Both the position numbers and the translations under genes were made by a program. Below are positions 9,724-16,150 of a stretch of DNA of 64,000 nt, piece by piece. The notes beneath the pieces are model-generated. The model saw nothing but the letters and a program-made list of their open reading frames with translations. It had not been told where the DNA came from and did no database searches. Numbering within the stretch: the stretch's first letter is position 1; each line of letters opens with the position of its first letter. This stretch comes from an uncultured bacterium (GTDB lineage Bacteria > Verrucomicrobiota > Kiritimatiellia > PWTM01): positions 1 to 64,000 of the forward strand of contig CALLFZ010000009.1 in NCBI GenBank assembly GCA_938010045.1. Direction: 5' to 3'.

Positions 9724-9763
9724 GTTAACGATTTCTTGACCTTTGGCTAACCAAAGCTTGACG
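9724..9763 (+). promoter_or_regulatory. Four-repeat Pho-box-like operator
   Basis: Four 7-base units occur at exactly 11-bp spacing: GTTAACG (9724), CTTGACC (9735), GCTAACC (9746) and CTTGACG (9757), each separated by 4 bases. Tandem 7-mers with 4-base spacers are the hallmark of sites for PhoB/PhoP-type winged-helix response regulators. The last unit overlaps a -35-like TTGACG. The element lies 86 bp upstream of phoU and about 330 bp upstream of the divergent phoA. A phoB/phoR pair is not in the window. Confidence 0.7.
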
Positions 9764-9848: not shown

Positions 9849-10943
9849 ATGAACGGCACGACCCATTTCGATGAGCGGATGCAGCGCGAGATCGGCCAAA
9901 TTCGCGATGCGGTCCGTCACATGGGCCAGTTGTGCGAGACCGCGATCCGACTCGCCCTTCGGGCGCTGCGGGAACGTGACCGTCAGGCGGCGTTTTCGGC
10001 GATTCTCCGCGACCAGCGGATCGACGAGATGGAGGTTGAGATTGACCGCCTGTGTCTTGAGTTTTTGGTGCGACAGCAACCGGCCGGCGGCCCGTTGCGG
10101 ATGGTGTACGGCACGATTCGCATCACATTGGAGCTCGAGCGGATCGGGGATTACGCAGAAAGCATCGCGCGGCACACGCTGAGACTGATCGGGGAGGAAT
10201 CGGAGATTCCGACGGCGCGGTATGGCGAGATGGCGGAGCTGACGCTGCAGATGCTCCGCGATGCGGTGGAGGCGTACGCTTCCGAAAACGAGGACCTCGC
10301 GCGGCGGACGATCGCCGCGGACGACGCGGCCGACGAGATGAAGCGCCGCCTGAACCGGGATCTTGTGAAGATGTTTCGGGACCAGCAACTGCCGTTCGAG
10401 GTCCTCGACGCCCTCATGATGATCACGCGGCGGTTCGAGCGGATTTCTGATCAGGCGCGCAATATTTGCCTCGAGGTGCTCTTCATGCGTACGGGTGCCG
10501 AGGCGCGCCATCCCCACTCCGGGCGATACCGCGTGCTGTTCGTCGACAGCGGGGGCTCCTGTCGCAGTCTGATGGCGGAAGCCGCCGCCCGCTCGCTGGG
10601 CGCGGAGCGGGTGGAGTTCGCCTCGGCCAGCGTGGATCCGGCGCCGTTGCCGTCCGCCGCAGCCGAGTTCCTTTTGGCGCAGGGCGCAACGGTTGGCCTC
10701 CTCCTGCCGGCCCCGCTGTTGCAGGCGGGCGATCTCGAAACCTATTCCGTGATCGTGGCGCTCGATCCGAACGTGCGCGCGGCGCTGCCGCGTGCGCTGC
10801 GAAAGGCGGTGGTCATGGACTGGGCGGTTCCGGATCCCTCCGCGTCGCCCGATGACCCGGCGAGCTATGGGGCGACGTGGTCCGAGCTGCGACGTCACAT
10901 CGAGGATCTGCTGCGCGCGATTGAGGGAGAGGATGGGACATGA
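9849..10943 (+). CDS. phoU: PhoU fused to a catalytically altered LMW-phosphatase/ArsC-like domain
   Basis: This 364-residue protein has two domains. Residues 5-215 are the PhoU helical-bundle pair, with metal-site motifs LERIGDYAESI (Glu97, Asp101) and RRFERISDQARNI. Residues 226-360 are a low-molecular-weight phosphotyrosine phosphatase/arsenate-reductase fold, with VLFVDSGGSCRSLMAEA and a late WAVPDP. In active members the P-loop begins with Cys (CX5R); here residue 233 is Asp while Arg239 is kept, so thiol catalysis is lost. PhoU normally couples Pst transport to PhoR. The second domain may be a phosphate-binding sensor (inference). The gene overlaps pstS by 4 bases. Confidence 0.88.
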   Translation: MNGTTHFDERMQREIGQIRDAVRHMGQLCETAIRLALRALRERDRQAAFSAILRDQRIDEMEVEIDRLCLEFLVRQQPAGGPLRMVYGTIRITLELERIGDYAESIARHTLRLIGEESEIPTARYGEMAELTLQMLRDAVEAYASENEDLARRTIAADDAADEMKRRLNRDLVKMFRDQQLPFEVLDALMMITRRFERISDQARNICLEVLFMRTGAEARHPHSGRYRVLFVDSGGSCRSLMAEAAARSLGAERVEFASASVDPAPLPSAAAEFLLAQGATVGLLLPAPLLQAGDLETYSVIVALDPNVRAALPRALRKAVVMDWAVPDPSASPDDPASYGATWSELRRHIEDLLRAIEGEDGT

Positions 10944-11878
10944 GGATACCAGGCACACGGACGGTGATCGAACCGTCGTTCTGGCGGTCGGCGCTCGCTG
11001 CGGGGATGGCGGCGATGATCTGCGCTGGCTGCGGCGGGCAGTCCGCCCCCGAAGGAGGCACCACGCTCCAGATCAAGGGTTCGGACACGATGGTGAACGT
11101 GGCGCAAGCGTGGGCTGAAGCCTATCACCAGGTTCGGCCTGGCGTTCGGGTGGAGGTCTCCGGCGGCGGCAGCGGCGTGGGCATCGCCGCGCTGCTTCGC
11201 GGCACGGTGGACATCGCCGCCTCAAGCCGCGATCTGAAACCGGAGGAGGCCGAGCAGGCGCGCCGCTACACCGGCCGCGAGGTGCGGTCCTTTGTCGTTG
11301 GACACGATGCGCTCGCCGTGTACGTCCACGCCTCGAACCCTCTGGAAGAGATCGCTTTCGAACAGCTCGCGGACATGTTCGCGGAGGGTGGCCGCATCGA
11401 GCGATGGTCGCAGTTGGGGGTCACGATCCCCGGCGGCGGCGATAAGATCATCCGGGTGAGCCGTCAGTCGAGTTCGGGTACCTACGAGTTTTTTCGCGAG
11501 CACGTGTTGGGCCGCCGGGACTTCCGGCTTGGGTCGCGCGACATGAACGGTTCGAAGGAGGTCGTCGAGCTCGTCGCGGCGACGCCCGCGGCGATCGGCT
11601 ACAGCGGCATGGGCTATCACGAGCCCGGGCGCGTAAAGATGCTACGCGTATCGCCGGGCGCGGGGCGGCCGGCCGTCGCGCCGACGATGGAGACAGCGAT
11701 GAGCGGGGAGTATCCGATCGCGCGGTCGCTGCTGCTGCTGACGCTCGGCGAACCGGAGGGCGAGATTCGCGCCTTCCTCGACTGGGTGCGATCGCCGACC
11801 GGGCAGACGATCGTGCGGGAGTGCGGGTATGTGCCGTTGACCCCCGATGAGCGCGCCGCGCTGACGGCGGGTCGCTGA
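10940..11878 (+). CDS. pstS: Phosphate ABC transporter substrate-binding lipoprotein PstS
   Basis: This 312-residue protein binds phosphate in the periplasm for the Pst importer. The N-terminus ends in a lipobox (AAMICAGC), so it is probably a lipoprotein. The mature part starts with the PstS pattern LQIKGSDTMVNVAQAWAEAY, followed by VSGGGSGVGIAAL and DIAASSRDLKPEE; the second half carries SRQSSSGTYEFF and GYSGMGY. These Ser/Thr/Gly loops form the phosphate cradle in the family. It overlaps phoU by 4 bases (ATGA) and leads into pstC. Confidence 0.9.
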   Translation: MRIPGTRTVIEPSFWRSALAAGMAAMICAGCGGQSAPEGGTTLQIKGSDTMVNVAQAWAEAYHQVRPGVRVEVSGGGSGVGIAALLRGTVDIAASSRDLKPEEAEQARRYTGREVRSFVVGHDALAVYVHASNPLEEIAFEQLADMFAEGGRIERWSQLGVTIPGGGDKIIRVSRQSSSGTYEFFREHVLGRRDFRLGSRDMNGSKEVVELVAATPAAIGYSGMGYHEPGRVKMLRVSPGAGRPAVAPTMETAMSGEYPIARSLLLLTLGEPEGEIRAFLDWVRSPTGQTIVRECGYVPLTPDERAALTAGR

Positions 11879-11899: not shown

Positions 11900-12835
11900 A
11901 TGTCGGCGGCATCTCCAGCGGAGGCGCCTTCGGTCCGGGCGGCTCGTCGTGCTGCTTTGGCCTGCGTCGGCGAGGGCGCGTTGGGGCTGCTGATCCGCCT
12001 CTGCGGTATCAGCGCGATTTTGTTCGTGATGGGTATCCTGCTGTTCATTGTGCGCGAGGCCGCACCTGTGGTGGTCTCGGGGCGCGTCAGCCTGGTTCAA
12101 TTCCTTACCCGCCCGGAGTGGTTTCCCACCTCGGAGGTCCATCGGCGATACGGCGCCCTCGCGATGATCGCCGGCACCTTCAGCGTCACGGGCCTCGCCA
12201 TGCTGATGGCGGTGCCGTTCGGCCTGGGCGCAGCCCTGTACCTCTCAGAGTTCTGCCCGCCACGGCCGAAGGAGGTGCTGAAGATCGTGATGGAGTTGCT
12301 CGCGGCCATCCCGAGCGTCGTGTGGGGGTTCATCGGCTTGACGGTGCTCAGCCGTATCATCGTGACGCTGACCGGTGCGCCGGTGGGCGTCAACATGCTC
12401 AATGGCGCCCTGGTGCTGGCGCTCATGAGCGTGCCGATCATCGTGTCCATCGCCGAGGACGCGCTCAAGGCCGTGCCCGACTCCTATCGCGAGGCCGCGC
12501 TCGCGCTGGGCGCAACACGCTGGCAGGTCACCTGGCGCGTGTTGCTGCCAGCGGCTCGCCACGGTCTGCTCGCCGCGGTCCTGCTCGGTGTCGGGCGGGG
12601 CGTCGGCGAGACGATGGCGGTTCTGATGACCACCGGCCATGCCGTGCAGATGCCGCGCAGCGTGCTCGATTCTGTGCGCACGCTCACCGCGAACATCGCC
12701 GCCGAGCTCGGCGAGGCCCCGGCGGGGTCGGATCACTACCGCGTGCTGTTCCTGACCGGCGTGCTACTGATGGTCATCACACTGGCGATTAACGTCACGG
12801 CGGATCTCATCGTGCGGGGAGTGAAACGGTCGTGA
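11900..12835 (+). CDS. pstC: Phosphate ABC transporter permease PstC
   Basis: This 311-residue inner-membrane permease has about six membrane segments. The first is near residues 28-52 (LLIRLCGISAILFVMGILLFIV). The ABC-permease coupling helix (EAA loop) is EAALALGATRWQVTWRVLLP near residues 198-217. IPSVVWGFIGL and GRGVGETMAVLM are typical of PstC. It follows pstS by 21 bases and overlaps pstA by 4 (GTGA). Confidence 0.93.
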   Translation: MSAASPAEAPSVRAARRAALACVGEGALGLLIRLCGISAILFVMGILLFIVREAAPVVVSGRVSLVQFLTRPEWFPTSEVHRRYGALAMIAGTFSVTGLAMLMAVPFGLGAALYLSEFCPPRPKEVLKIVMELLAAIPSVVWGFIGLTVLSRIIVTLTGAPVGVNMLNGALVLALMSVPIIVSIAEDALKAVPDSYREAALALGATRWQVTWRVLLPAARHGLLAAVLLGVGRGVGETMAVLMTTGHAVQMPRSVLDSVRTLTANIAAELGEAPAGSDHYRVLFLTGVLLMVITLAINVTADLIVRGVKRS

Positions 12836-13743
12836 GCGGCGGCACCGCGAGCCCCCAACCGTTTGCGCCGACGGCCGGCCTGCTTGCCCGGCGGCGCCGC
12901 GAGCGCCTTGCGCGTGGCGTGTTCCTCGCGATGACGGTCCTGATGATCCTGCCGCTGGCGGGAATCCTCGGGTATCTCGTCGTGCGCGCCTGGCCGTCGC
13001 TCAGCTGGTCGTTCCTCGTGGAGGCGCCCGCGCGCGGGATGCGGGAGGGCGGCATCTGGCCCGCCCTCGTCGGCACGATCGATCTGGTTGTGATTTCGCT
13101 GGCCGTCGCGGCGCCGATCGGAGTGCTCGCGGCGATTTACCTGAACGAATACGCGCGGGACAACTGGGTTCACCGCGTCGTGAACCTCGCCGTGATCACA
13201 TTGGCCGGCGTGCCGAGCATCGTCCACGCGCTCTTCGGCCTCGGCGCGTTCGTGTACGCCGCGCGCCTCGGCTATTCGATCCTGTCGGCCTCGCTCACGC
13301 TGGCGTTGATGACCCTGCCGGTGATCATCGCCAGCACCCGTGAGGCGCTCGCGAGCGTGCCGCGCAGCTTCCGCGAAGCCTGCTGGAACGTGGGCGCGAC
13401 GAGGTGGCAGACCATCCGGGCGGTCGTGCTGCCGAACTCGATCGGCGGCATTCTGACGGGCATCATCCTGCAAGTGAGCCGCGCGGCCGGCGAGACCGCG
13501 CCGATCATGTTCACCGGCGCCGTCTTCTACAAGGCCGTGCGCGGCGGCACGCTGCTGCCCTACCGGCTCGACGAACAATGTATGGCGCTCTCAATGCACC
13601 TCTATACCCTCGCTACGCAGGTGCCGAACGTGCGGCCCTCGATTCCGTATGCGACCGCCGTGGTGCTCCTCGCGGTGGTCCTGCTGGTCAACGCCGCCGC
13701 GATCACGCTGCGCCTGCGCGTCCGAACCCGTCCAAAGTGGTGA
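12832..13743 (+). CDS. pstA: Phosphate ABC transporter permease PstA
   Basis: This 303-residue permease partners PstC. Membrane segments begin near residue 30. The family markers are GVPSIVHALFGLGAF, the EAA loop REACWNVGATRWQTIRAVVL, and SRAAGETAPIMFTGAVF. The GTG start at 12832 overlaps the pstC stop, and the gene overlaps the first pstB by 4 bases, so the whole set is probably translationally coupled. Confidence 0.93.
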   Translation: MSGGTASPQPFAPTAGLLARRRRERLARGVFLAMTVLMILPLAGILGYLVVRAWPSLSWSFLVEAPARGMREGGIWPALVGTIDLVVISLAVAAPIGVLAAIYLNEYARDNWVHRVVNLAVITLAGVPSIVHALFGLGAFVYAARLGYSILSASLTLALMTLPVIIASTREALASVPRSFREACWNVGATRWQTIRAVVLPNSIGGILTGIILQVSRAAGETAPIMFTGAVFYKAVRGGTLLPYRLDEQCMALSMHLYTLATQVPNVRPSIPYATAVVLLAVVLLVNAAAITLRLRVRTRPKW

Positions 13744-14510
13744 CACCCGTGGTTGCTCCGTCCCCCTTGCTCGAGGTGCGCGATCTGCGACTGTCCTACC
13801 GCGGCCGCGAGGTCCTTCACGGCATTTCGTTCGAGGTGGCGGAACGCGAAATCCTCGCCGTGATCGGCCCCGCCCAATCCGGCAAGACTTCGTTGCTGCG
13901 CTGCCTGAACCGGACAGTCGAGATGATCCCCGGCGCCGCGGTCTCGGGGAGCATCCGGTTTCGAGGGGAGGAGATCCTGCGCACCCGCCGCGTCCACGAA
14001 CTTCGCCGCCGGATCGGCATGGTGGCCCCCCTGCCCGTGGGCTTGCCGATGAGCGTCTACGATAACGTCGCCTTCGCGCCGCGCTGCGCGGGCGTGTACG
14101 ATCGCGCCGCGTTGGATGCGATCGTCGAGCGCTGCCTGCGGCAGGCCGCGTTGTGGGACGAAGTGCGCGATCGGCTCGACCTGCCCGGCACTCGCCTCTC
14201 AGGTGGCCAGCAGCAGCGGCTGACGATCGCGCGCGCCCTTTCCCACGAGCCGGATATCCTCTGCCTCGATGAGTTCTCGATCGCGATCGATCCGGTCACC
14301 ACCATGCGCATCGAGGAGGTCCTGCGGAAGCTGCGCTCGACCATGACGATCATCCTCGTCACCAACTTGAACCAGCAGGCGCGACGGCTGGCGGACCGCA
14401 CGATGTTCCTGTGGAAGGGCGACATCGTGGAAACGGGCGAGACGACCGCGATGTTCGAATCGCCCCGCGATCCCCGCACGGCCGACTTCCTTAGCGGACG
14501 AGTCGGATGA
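13740..14510 (+). CDS. pstB: PstB-type ATPase 1 with degenerate Q- and H-loops
   Basis: This 256-residue ABC ATPase starts at a GTG overlapping the pstA stop (GTGA). Walker A is GPAQSGKTS (residues 43-51), the signature LSGGQ is intact (153-157) and Walker B is LCLDE (174-178). The Q-loop that reads MVFQ in PstB is MVAP here (Gln lost), and the H-loop that reads VTHN is VTNL (His replaced by Asn at 209). The Pro normally after the Walker B Glu is Phe (DEF). This nucleotide-binding domain can offer a good signature to a partner but is unlikely to hydrolyse ATP at its own Walker site. It overlaps the second ATPase by 4 bases, so a heterodimer with it is the simplest reading. Confidence 0.88.
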   Translation: MTPVVAPSPLLEVRDLRLSYRGREVLHGISFEVAEREILAVIGPAQSGKTSLLRCLNRTVEMIPGAAVSGSIRFRGEEILRTRRVHELRRRIGMVAPLPVGLPMSVYDNVAFAPRCAGVYDRAALDAIVERCLRQAALWDEVRDRLDLPGTRLSGGQQQRLTIARALSHEPDILCLDEFSIAIDPVTTMRIEEVLRKLRSTMTIILVTNLNQQARRLADRTMFLWKGDIVETGETTAMFESPRDPRTADFLSGRVG

Positions 14511-15283
14511 TCCCTCCCGACGACCTGGCGATCGAAACGCGCGGCTTGAACCTCTGGTATGGCTCATTTCAGGCACTTCGCAACGTGAACCTCCGGATCC
14601 GTCGCGGCATCATCACAGCGCTCATCGGGCCCTCCGGCTGCGGCAAGACCACCTTGCTCCGTTGCTTCAACCGCATCAACGAACGCGATCCGAACGTCCG
14701 CACCACCGGCGAGGTTCGCATCCTCGGCCACGAGATTCACGGGCCGCACGTCGCGCTCGAGGAGTTGCGCCGGCATGTGGGCATGGTGTTTCAGCGGCCG
14801 AATCCGCTGCCCTTATCGGTCTATGAAAACGTCGTTTTCGGCCTGCGCGTGCACTGCTCGGCGGGCGCGTTGACGCGCGACGAACTCGATGCCGCGGTCG
14901 AAAGCGCGCTCACCGAGGTCGGGCTCTGGCGCGATCTGCGCGACCGGTTGGACCGGCGCGCCACGGATCTGCAGCTCGAACAACAGCAGAAGCTGTGCAT
15001 CGCGCGCCTGCTGCCGCTGAAACCCGAACTCATCCTGATGGACGAGCCCTGTAGCGCGCTCGATGTCGAGGGCACGCACGCGATCGAGGAGTTGATGTTT
15101 TCGCTTCGCGAACGGTATACGATTGTGATCGTGACCCACAACATGGCCCAGGCGCGGCGCGCCAGCGACGAGTGCGTGTTCATGCTGCTCGGCGAGCTCG
15201 TCGAACACCGTCGCACGGCCGACCTCTTCCTCGCGCCGTCAGATCCCCGCACCGCGGAGTACATCGAGGGCCGCTACGGATGA
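14507..15283 (+). CDS. pstB: PstB-type ATPase 2 with degenerate signature motif
   Basis: This 258-residue ABC ATPase keeps the full catalytic set: Walker A GPSGCGKTT (41-49), Q-loop MVFQRPNP (Gln96), Walker B LILMDEPCSALD (176-187) and H-loop VTHNMAQ (His211). Its signature, LSGGQ in normal PstB, reads LQLEQ (155-159), removing the Ser and both Gly that contact ATP across the dimer. It therefore needs the signature of another subunit, and the adjacent ATPase 1 supplies exactly that. Tandem pstB genes are known in Firmicutes; the reciprocal loss seen here is what is unusual. The gene is the last of the operon. Confidence 0.88.
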   Translation: MIPPDDLAIETRGLNLWYGSFQALRNVNLRIRRGIITALIGPSGCGKTTLLRCFNRINERDPNVRTTGEVRILGHEIHGPHVALEELRRHVGMVFQRPNPLPLSVYENVVFGLRVHCSAGALTRDELDAAVESALTEVGLWRDLRDRLDRRATDLQLEQQQKLCIARLLPLKPELILMDEPCSALDVEGTHAIEELMFSLRERYTIVIVTHNMAQARRASDECVFMLLGELVEHRRTADLFLAPSDPRTAEYIEGRYG

Positions 15284-15307: not shown

Positions 15308-16150
15308 ATGAGAATCGGCTTGGCGCTGGGCGGTGGGGGCGTGCGGGGACTGGCGCATATCCCGGTGCTGGAGGCGTTCGATGCGGTGGGTGTGCCGCCG
15401 GCCGCGATCGCCGGCACGAGCATGGGAGCCATCCTCGGCGCATTGTACGCGGCCGGCCGCACGGGCCGTGCGATCCGCCGCCGCGTCCGCAGCCGATCGC
15501 CGGCCAGCCTTGACGCGTGGCGCCGCCGGCTGCGCAACCGCGCCGCACTCGCCGGCTGGCTGCGCGCGATCCGTCCCGATCTCCGCCGCGGCGGCGTGCT
15601 GCGGACCGACCGCGTGATCGGCTTGCTCGCCGACGACCTCCCCTGCGAAACCTTTGAGGAGTTGCGGATTCCGCTGCGCGTCACCGCAACCGATTTCTGG
15701 ACGGGCGAGGAAGTTGTGTTCGACCGCGGCCCGCTGCTATCCGCCCTCCAGGCCAGCATGGCCGTGCCGGGCGTATTCACGCCGGTCGAGCGCGACGGCC
15801 GCGTGCTGGTGGACGGGGGCATTGTGAATCTTGTGCCATGGAACCTGCTGCGTGATTGCTGCGATCGCGTCATCGCTGTGCATGTGGCCGCGCCGGTGCC
15901 GCCCCGCGATCGCCGGCCGGTGCCGAACCTTGCCGAGGCCGTTCTCGGCGCATTTGATATCGGCCATGCGGCGTTGCTCGCCGAGCGCCTGCGAGTGTCG
16001 CCGCCGGATCTGTGGGTGCCGGTGCCGTTGCGAGACATCGGTATATTCGAGTTCACGCGGATCGAGGAGGCCCTGCGGCGCGGCGAGGCCGCCGCCGCGC
16101 AGGTCCGGCGCACCCTCGCCGAATGGACCGGCCGCGACGTGCCGTCATGA
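15308..16150 (+). CDS. Patatin-like phospholipase (RssA type)
   Basis: This 280-residue serine hydrolase has a Ser-Asp dyad. The oxyanion loop is LGGGGVRGLAHIPVLEA, the nucleophile elbow is AGTSMGA and the Asp motif is VDGGIVN. The length matches bacterial RssA/YchK-like proteins, which act on membrane or lysophospholipids in the cytoplasm. It follows pstB' by 24 bases and overlaps bioA by 4 (ATGA). The substrate is unknown. Confidence 0.85.
   Translation: MRIGLALGGGGVRGLAHIPVLEAFDAVGVPPAAIAGTSMGAILGALYAAGRTGRAIRRRVRSRSPASLDAWRRRLRNRAALAGWLRAIRPDLRRGGVLRTDRVIGLLADDLPCETFEELRIPLRVTATDFWTGEEVVFDRGPLLSALQASMAVPGVFTPVERDGRVLVDGGIVNLVPWNLLRDCCDRVIAVHVAAPVPPRDRRPVPNLAEAVLGAFDIGHAALLAERLRVSPPDLWVPVPLRDIGIFEFTRIEEALRRGEAAAAQVRRTLAEWTGRDVPS

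Follow-up and report, generated by a model that had tools for sequence, protein, structure and literature searches.

A PhoU protein fused to a putative ArsC-like pseudoenzyme domain in a six-gene operon for a predicted asymmetric phosphate transporter

The window analysed here (the whole stretch of 64,000 nucleotides) contains an open reading frame of 364 amino acids at positions 9849-10943 on the forward strand, in which a PhoU part (residues 10-217) is joined to a domain with the fold shared by arsenate reductases (ArsC) and low-molecular-weight protein tyrosine phosphatases (LMWPTP; residues 225-359). The N-terminal part was recognized by Pfam PF01895 (E 9.8e-37), the product passed the curated NCBIfam equivalog TIGR02135 (161.1 bits; cut-off, 130.25), and residues 229-353 matched the LMWPc profile PF01451 (27.5 bits; cut-off, 23.2). 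An AlphaFold model of the product had a mean pLDDT of 92 and was confident over most of the C-terminal domain. Within this model, residues 4-217 superposed on the solved PhoU 1t72 (Z 30.3, 1.8 Å over 214 residues) and residues 225-357 on the pI258 ArsC 1lk0 (Z 18.4, 1.9 Å over 129 residues). The fusion of PhoU to an LMWPTP-fold domain named in the original prediction was thus recovered by both profiles and fold matches. The fold assignment of the second domain stood, but its nearest solved proteins are arsenate reductases of the thioredoxin type rather than tyrosine phosphatases, so ArsC-like is the better name.

The P-loop of this domain (10533-10571, forward strand) reads V229-LFV-D233-SGGSC-R239-SL, with Asp in place of the catalytic Cys according to the sequence, its homologues and the fold match. 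In the structural alignment (residue 225 onto residue 2), D233 falls on ArsC Cys10 and R239 on ArsC Arg16. A later element, W325-AVPD-P330 (10821-10838, forward strand), carries Asp329 at the general-acid position. The replaced CX5R nucleophile, the retained Arg239 and the late WAVPDP were therefore all confirmed as first described. The redox Cys pair of ArsC (Cys82/Cys89) was absent from the product and from the clade members inspected. For the window protein, a role as a Cys-based arsenate reductase or tyrosine phosphatase was rejected, given that both the nucleophile and the redox pair are missing; a receiver domain, suggested by the VDE/VDD look of the P-loop, was rejected because the fold is that of ArsC.

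In the PhoU part, predicted E-R-x-x-D metal-site motifs occur in both repeats (E97, R98, G100, D101 and R198 do not vary, and E197 and D201 are almost invariant). The Asp of the canonical QPVAxDLR loop, which is no part of the curated TIGR02135 definition, was lost in the fused clade (H, Q, P or L in 22/22 sampled) and was present in 39/40 canonical PhoUs. A second clade-specific change, GDY, was found in 22/22.

The fusion gene is followed on the forward strand by pstS (10940-11878), which encodes the phosphate-binding protein and whose start overlaps the fusion stop codon, by the permease genes pstC (11900-12835) and pstA (12832-13743), and by two ATPase genes, pstB1 (13767-14510, start codon provisional) and pstB2 (14507-15283), with 4-base overlaps at several junctions. 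PstC and PstA scored above their curated cut-offs (TIGR02138 and TIGR00974, respectively), and the other products scored below theirs (PstS, 202.6 versus 206.6; PstB1 and PstB2, 278.9 and 312.5 versus 343.2). An alkaline phosphatase gene (PF00245; 8172-9392, reverse strand) lies upstream of and divergent from the fusion gene, which fits a Pho regulon, and a histidine kinase gene directly adjoins some of the related operons. A search for a PHO box upstream of the fusion gene gave one weak match in the window, distant and at chance level. The upstream gap holds an inverted repeat, CTTTGG-CTAA-CCAAAG (9741-9756), a possible operator. Directly after pstB2 lies a gene for a patatin-like phospholipase (15308-16150, forward strand). 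Elsewhere in the genome of the window, which was searched by regions, lie canonical copies of pstCAB and phoU, and its canonical PstB passes the curated cut-off.

Related loci were gathered by searching with two PhoU peptides, without selection on the P-loop. This yielded 80 loci, all of which extend into the second domain, from many lineages as read from organism titles, which are unreliable for MAG records. The six-gene operon was complete in 61 of these 80 loci, or 62 when L143 is counted, whose PhoU fell just below the score used. Most incomplete loci stop at contig ends; in L100 and L140 the end of the operon is absent away from contig ends (a run of N lies there in L140). In gammaproteobacterial and Gemmatimonadota-type loci the order is pstS-phoU-pstC-pstA-pstB1-pstB2, with the fusion gene second. 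The fusion is a fixed part of this six-gene operon. Within the class of the window, an intact fusion of this clade was found in 5 of 346 genomes searched, and no intact fusion from other classes turned up in the sample covered by a search of the phylum, although the peptide search yielded many such loci judged by organism titles. One congener (genome G002, loci L004/L185) carries a deletion remnant of the operon, in which a truncated fusion gene (P-loop VDSGSACRD) is joined to the ends of pstA and pstB2; a patatin-like frame apparently adjoins this remnant. Among plasmid records, none covered 80% of the fusion, and tblastn matches to PstB1 were all below 60% identity.

After further genomes were added to the 80 loci, 96 fusions could be compared residue by residue, of which 89 fall on one side of a branch with a support of 97. 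At the nucleophile position these 89 carry Asp in 78, Ser in 4, Cys in 3, Gly in 2, Ala in 1 and Glu in 1; the remaining seven, located in operons of canonical order, carry Cys (5) or Ser (2). Stand-alone LMWP proteins of the same class, used as a control, had Cys..Arg in 27/27 readable cases, although the LMWPc profile used to draw them favours Cys. An isolated mutation at Asp233 was ruled out by this tabulation, in which Cys is the minority residue within the clade, and the lack of a thiol nucleophile noted for the window protein holds for most of its relatives. By the aligned homologues, the residue at the nucleophile position is Asp by lineage and not by accident, and the domain is best described as a putative pseudoenzyme of the ArsC/LMWPTP fold.

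Substitutions were counted on a tree built from PhoU columns only, which is unrooted and so gives no direction for the change between Cys and Asp. Asp233 changed 6 times over the 89 rows against a domain median of 29, ranking eighth slowest of 132 columns, and Arg239 changed 29 times, the median rate. Arg was present at the latter position in 43/89 and replaced in 46/89 (by Leu, His, Thr, Ala, Lys and others). It was kept in all eight Cys-bearing fusions, and in 35/78 Asp rows versus 15/18 non-Asp rows (Fisher p 0.004, phylogeny ignored), a pattern suggesting that the Arg becomes free to change once Cys is lost, whereas the Asp is maintained. Given the strong constraint on Asp233 and the median rate of Arg239, the selected feature appears to be the Asp, not a Cys-less phosphate pocket.

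These counts bear on the proposal that the domain binds phosphate or arsenate without Cys, so that PhoU would sense cytoplasmic phosphate directly, for instance in trans-inhibition of the importer. The fold and the P-loop frame are kept, Arg239 is present in the window protein and about half of its relatives keep the Arg, and the gene sits in a phosphate-import operon. The step from a kept Arg to a phosphate binder is nonetheless weakened by the frequent loss of that Arg beside a strongly kept Asp. A carboxylate within a P-loop is expected to disfavour the phosphate dianion, and an asymmetric branch with unfused PhoU (see below) manages without the domain. The missing thiol of the original interpretation stands, and the direct phosphate sensor is rather unlikely. 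An active Asp233, serving as a phospho-acceptor or nucleophile in the manner of receiver or HAD proteins so that the domain would accept a phosphoryl group as part of Pho signalling, was judged very improbable. No other polar residue of the P-loop is as constrained as Asp233, and Glu or Asp follows this position in 55/89, giving a receiver-like VDE/VDD start (e.g., VLFVDDDTATR in L178); however, the third strand was not seen to end in a second conserved acidic residue, as expected for the phospho-Asp of a receiver, and Ser, Gly, Ala, Glu or Cys occupies the Asp233 position in 11 relatives.

The domain could also be what is left of an ancestral PhoU-ArsC fusion, decaying and without a current function. 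It evolves faster than PhoU in several pairs, most so in the genus of the window (43% identity versus 68% for PhoU, dN/dS about 0.67), the G002 operon is a remnant, and the domain is missing from the unfused branch. It is, however, open and full length across several phyla, its dN/dS in other scorable pairs was 0.04-0.41, and the structure model is confident over most of it. Trp325 is invariant (89/89), Phe231 and Ala243 are each kept in 88/89, and SAG 259-261 is conserved. The kept Asp together with these neighbouring structural residues counts against a phosphate pocket as well as against a mere relic, and the relic reading was considered unlikely.

The two ATPases, which lie outside 9849-10943 and were absent from the original prediction, differ from canonical PstB in separate motifs. 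In the window, PstB1 has an intact LSGGQQQR signature and the Walker B sequence LDEFSIAID, with the Q-loop Gln replaced by Pro (VAPLP) and the switch His by Asn (VTN). In PstB2 the Walker A, Q-loop, Walker B and His are intact, with LQLEQ in place of the LSGGQ signature. Across the PstB1 alignment, the Q-loop Pro was found in 67/67, the His to Asn change in 66/66 and LSGGQQQR in 67/67; the 64 aligned PstB2 sequences keep Walker A, Q-loop, Walker B and His, and almost all read L-[QS]-L-E for LSGG. The catalytic Glu is present in both. Canonical PstBs from the same material had GPSGCGKS and VTHNMQ in 38/39, and LSGGQ in all, LSGGQ being a criterion by which they were selected. Judged from these motifs, PstB1 and PstB2 carry complementary defects, which predicts an asymmetric dimer in which one ATP site is of the consensus type and the other is degenerate.

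Relatives within the class carry a second arrangement, pstS-pstC-pstA-pstB1'-pstB2'-phoU, in which PhoU is unfused and the ATPase defects are split in the same way. At these loci (L201-L206, L208 and L210), pstB1' has an intact LSGGQ, a Q-loop Leu and VTNNTK, and pstB2' has the signature LP[LM]DQ. PstB1 and PstB1' form one clade (support 99; 98.7 with motifs masked), as do PstB2 and PstB2' (support 97; 77 with motifs masked), so the asymmetry probably arose once, with the fused domain probably added in one of the two branches. A sister relation between the fused PhoU and the PhoU of the unfused branch was rejected (AU p 4e-11). Since the unfused branch has the same asymmetry, the extra domain is not required for an asymmetric Pst. 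In two further loci, L166 (7665-10576) and L169, fusions with Asp lie next to ABC genes that are even more degenerate. Gln stands at both Walker B Glu positions in L166 (LLLDQP and LLDQP) and PstS was not detected there, so the complex may perhaps be a non-hydrolysing, signalling-only one.

The explanation favoured here, with moderate confidence, is that the fused PhoU is a dedicated regulator of the asymmetric Pst encoded in the same operon, with the dead ArsC domain serving as a docking or structural module. PstB1 and PstB2 would pair as a heterodimer, in which the hydrolysing site would combine Walker A, Walker B, Q-loop and His of PstB2 with the LSGGQ of PstB1, and the degenerate site, formed by the PstB1 Walker A and the broken PstB2 signature, may hold ATP. 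The fused PhoU would bind this dimer and report its state to phosphate signalling. Its dead domain would no longer read phosphate by Cys/Arg chemistry; the Asp carboxylate probably fills the anion hole of the P-loop, which would hold the loop in place as a surface for docking or structure. Such a fixed loop could help direct the fused PhoU to the asymmetric transporter of its own operon instead of the canonical Pst of the same cell. A bolder version, in which the asymmetric Pst is a sensor-transporter (transceptor) whose degenerate site holds ATP for a gated or signalling state that is read by the fused PhoU with its Asp-locked P-loop, is possible though doubtful. If true, it would link import to Pho signalling in a way that is not available to the symmetric Pst.

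The way in which PhoU detects the transport state of Pst and relays it to PhoR has been debated for a long time. In a natural Pst that combines a working ATP site with a silent one and has a PhoU tailored to it, as predicted here, the two sites and the PhoU contact would become separable, unlike in a symmetric PstB dimer. It would also present a former enzyme domain that has become a pseudoenzyme under selection for Asp, while other operons encode PhoU-ArsC fusions that are apparently catalytic. The open-licence literature held nothing on PhoU fused to LMWPTP or ArsC, nor on a degenerate PstB or an asymmetric Pst, and this version of Pst is widespread and apparently undescribed.

The fused protein shares with canonical PhoU (TIGR02135; PDB 1t72 and 4q25) the two-repeat helical fold and the E-R-x-G-D frames of the metal sites, and differs in its extra pseudo-ArsC domain, the loss of the DLR Asp (22/22) and an asymmetric ATPase pair of its own. 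Compared with canonical pst-phoU operons, its gene is usually first, but it comes second, behind pstS, among the gammaproteobacterial and Gemmatimonadota loci. The second domain has the fold (Z 18.4 to ArsC and about 16 to LMWPTP), P-loop frame and WxxxDP element of pI258 ArsC (1lk0) and the LMW protein tyrosine phosphatases, but has Asp for Cys, lacks the second redox Cys pair and does not conserve the Arg across the family. Five PhoU-ArsC fusions in pst operons of canonical order (L167, L171, L175, L176 and L177) have the same domain order, whereas their CX5R is intact in both Cys and Arg and their PstB is single and intact where read. Their PhoU parts group elsewhere in the tree (a joint clade with the fused PhoU was neither supported nor rejected, AU p 0.46). 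L175 and L176, which carry the ArsC Cys pair in addition to the intact CX5R, resemble catalytic arsenate reductases attached to PhoU.

Neighbouring pstB genes whose roles are unequal are likewise known from the tandem pstB of Enterococcus faecalis and from Bacillus PstBA/PstBB. The Firmicutes tandem pstB1/pstB2 of E. faecalis, whose roles were first compared in 2025 (PMC12096839), has all motifs intact in both proteins, whereas the pair described here has complementary defects. One consensus and one degenerate site over two nucleotide-binding domains (NBDs) are also known from heterodimeric ABC transporters such as TM287/288 and Pdr5 and, among importers, RbsA/NupO; the degenerate signature of Pdr5 is LNVEQ (PMC7756269), and the one read here is L[QS]LEQ. 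Those systems are mostly exporters or importers with fused NBDs, whereas here the catalytic Glu is kept in both PstBs.
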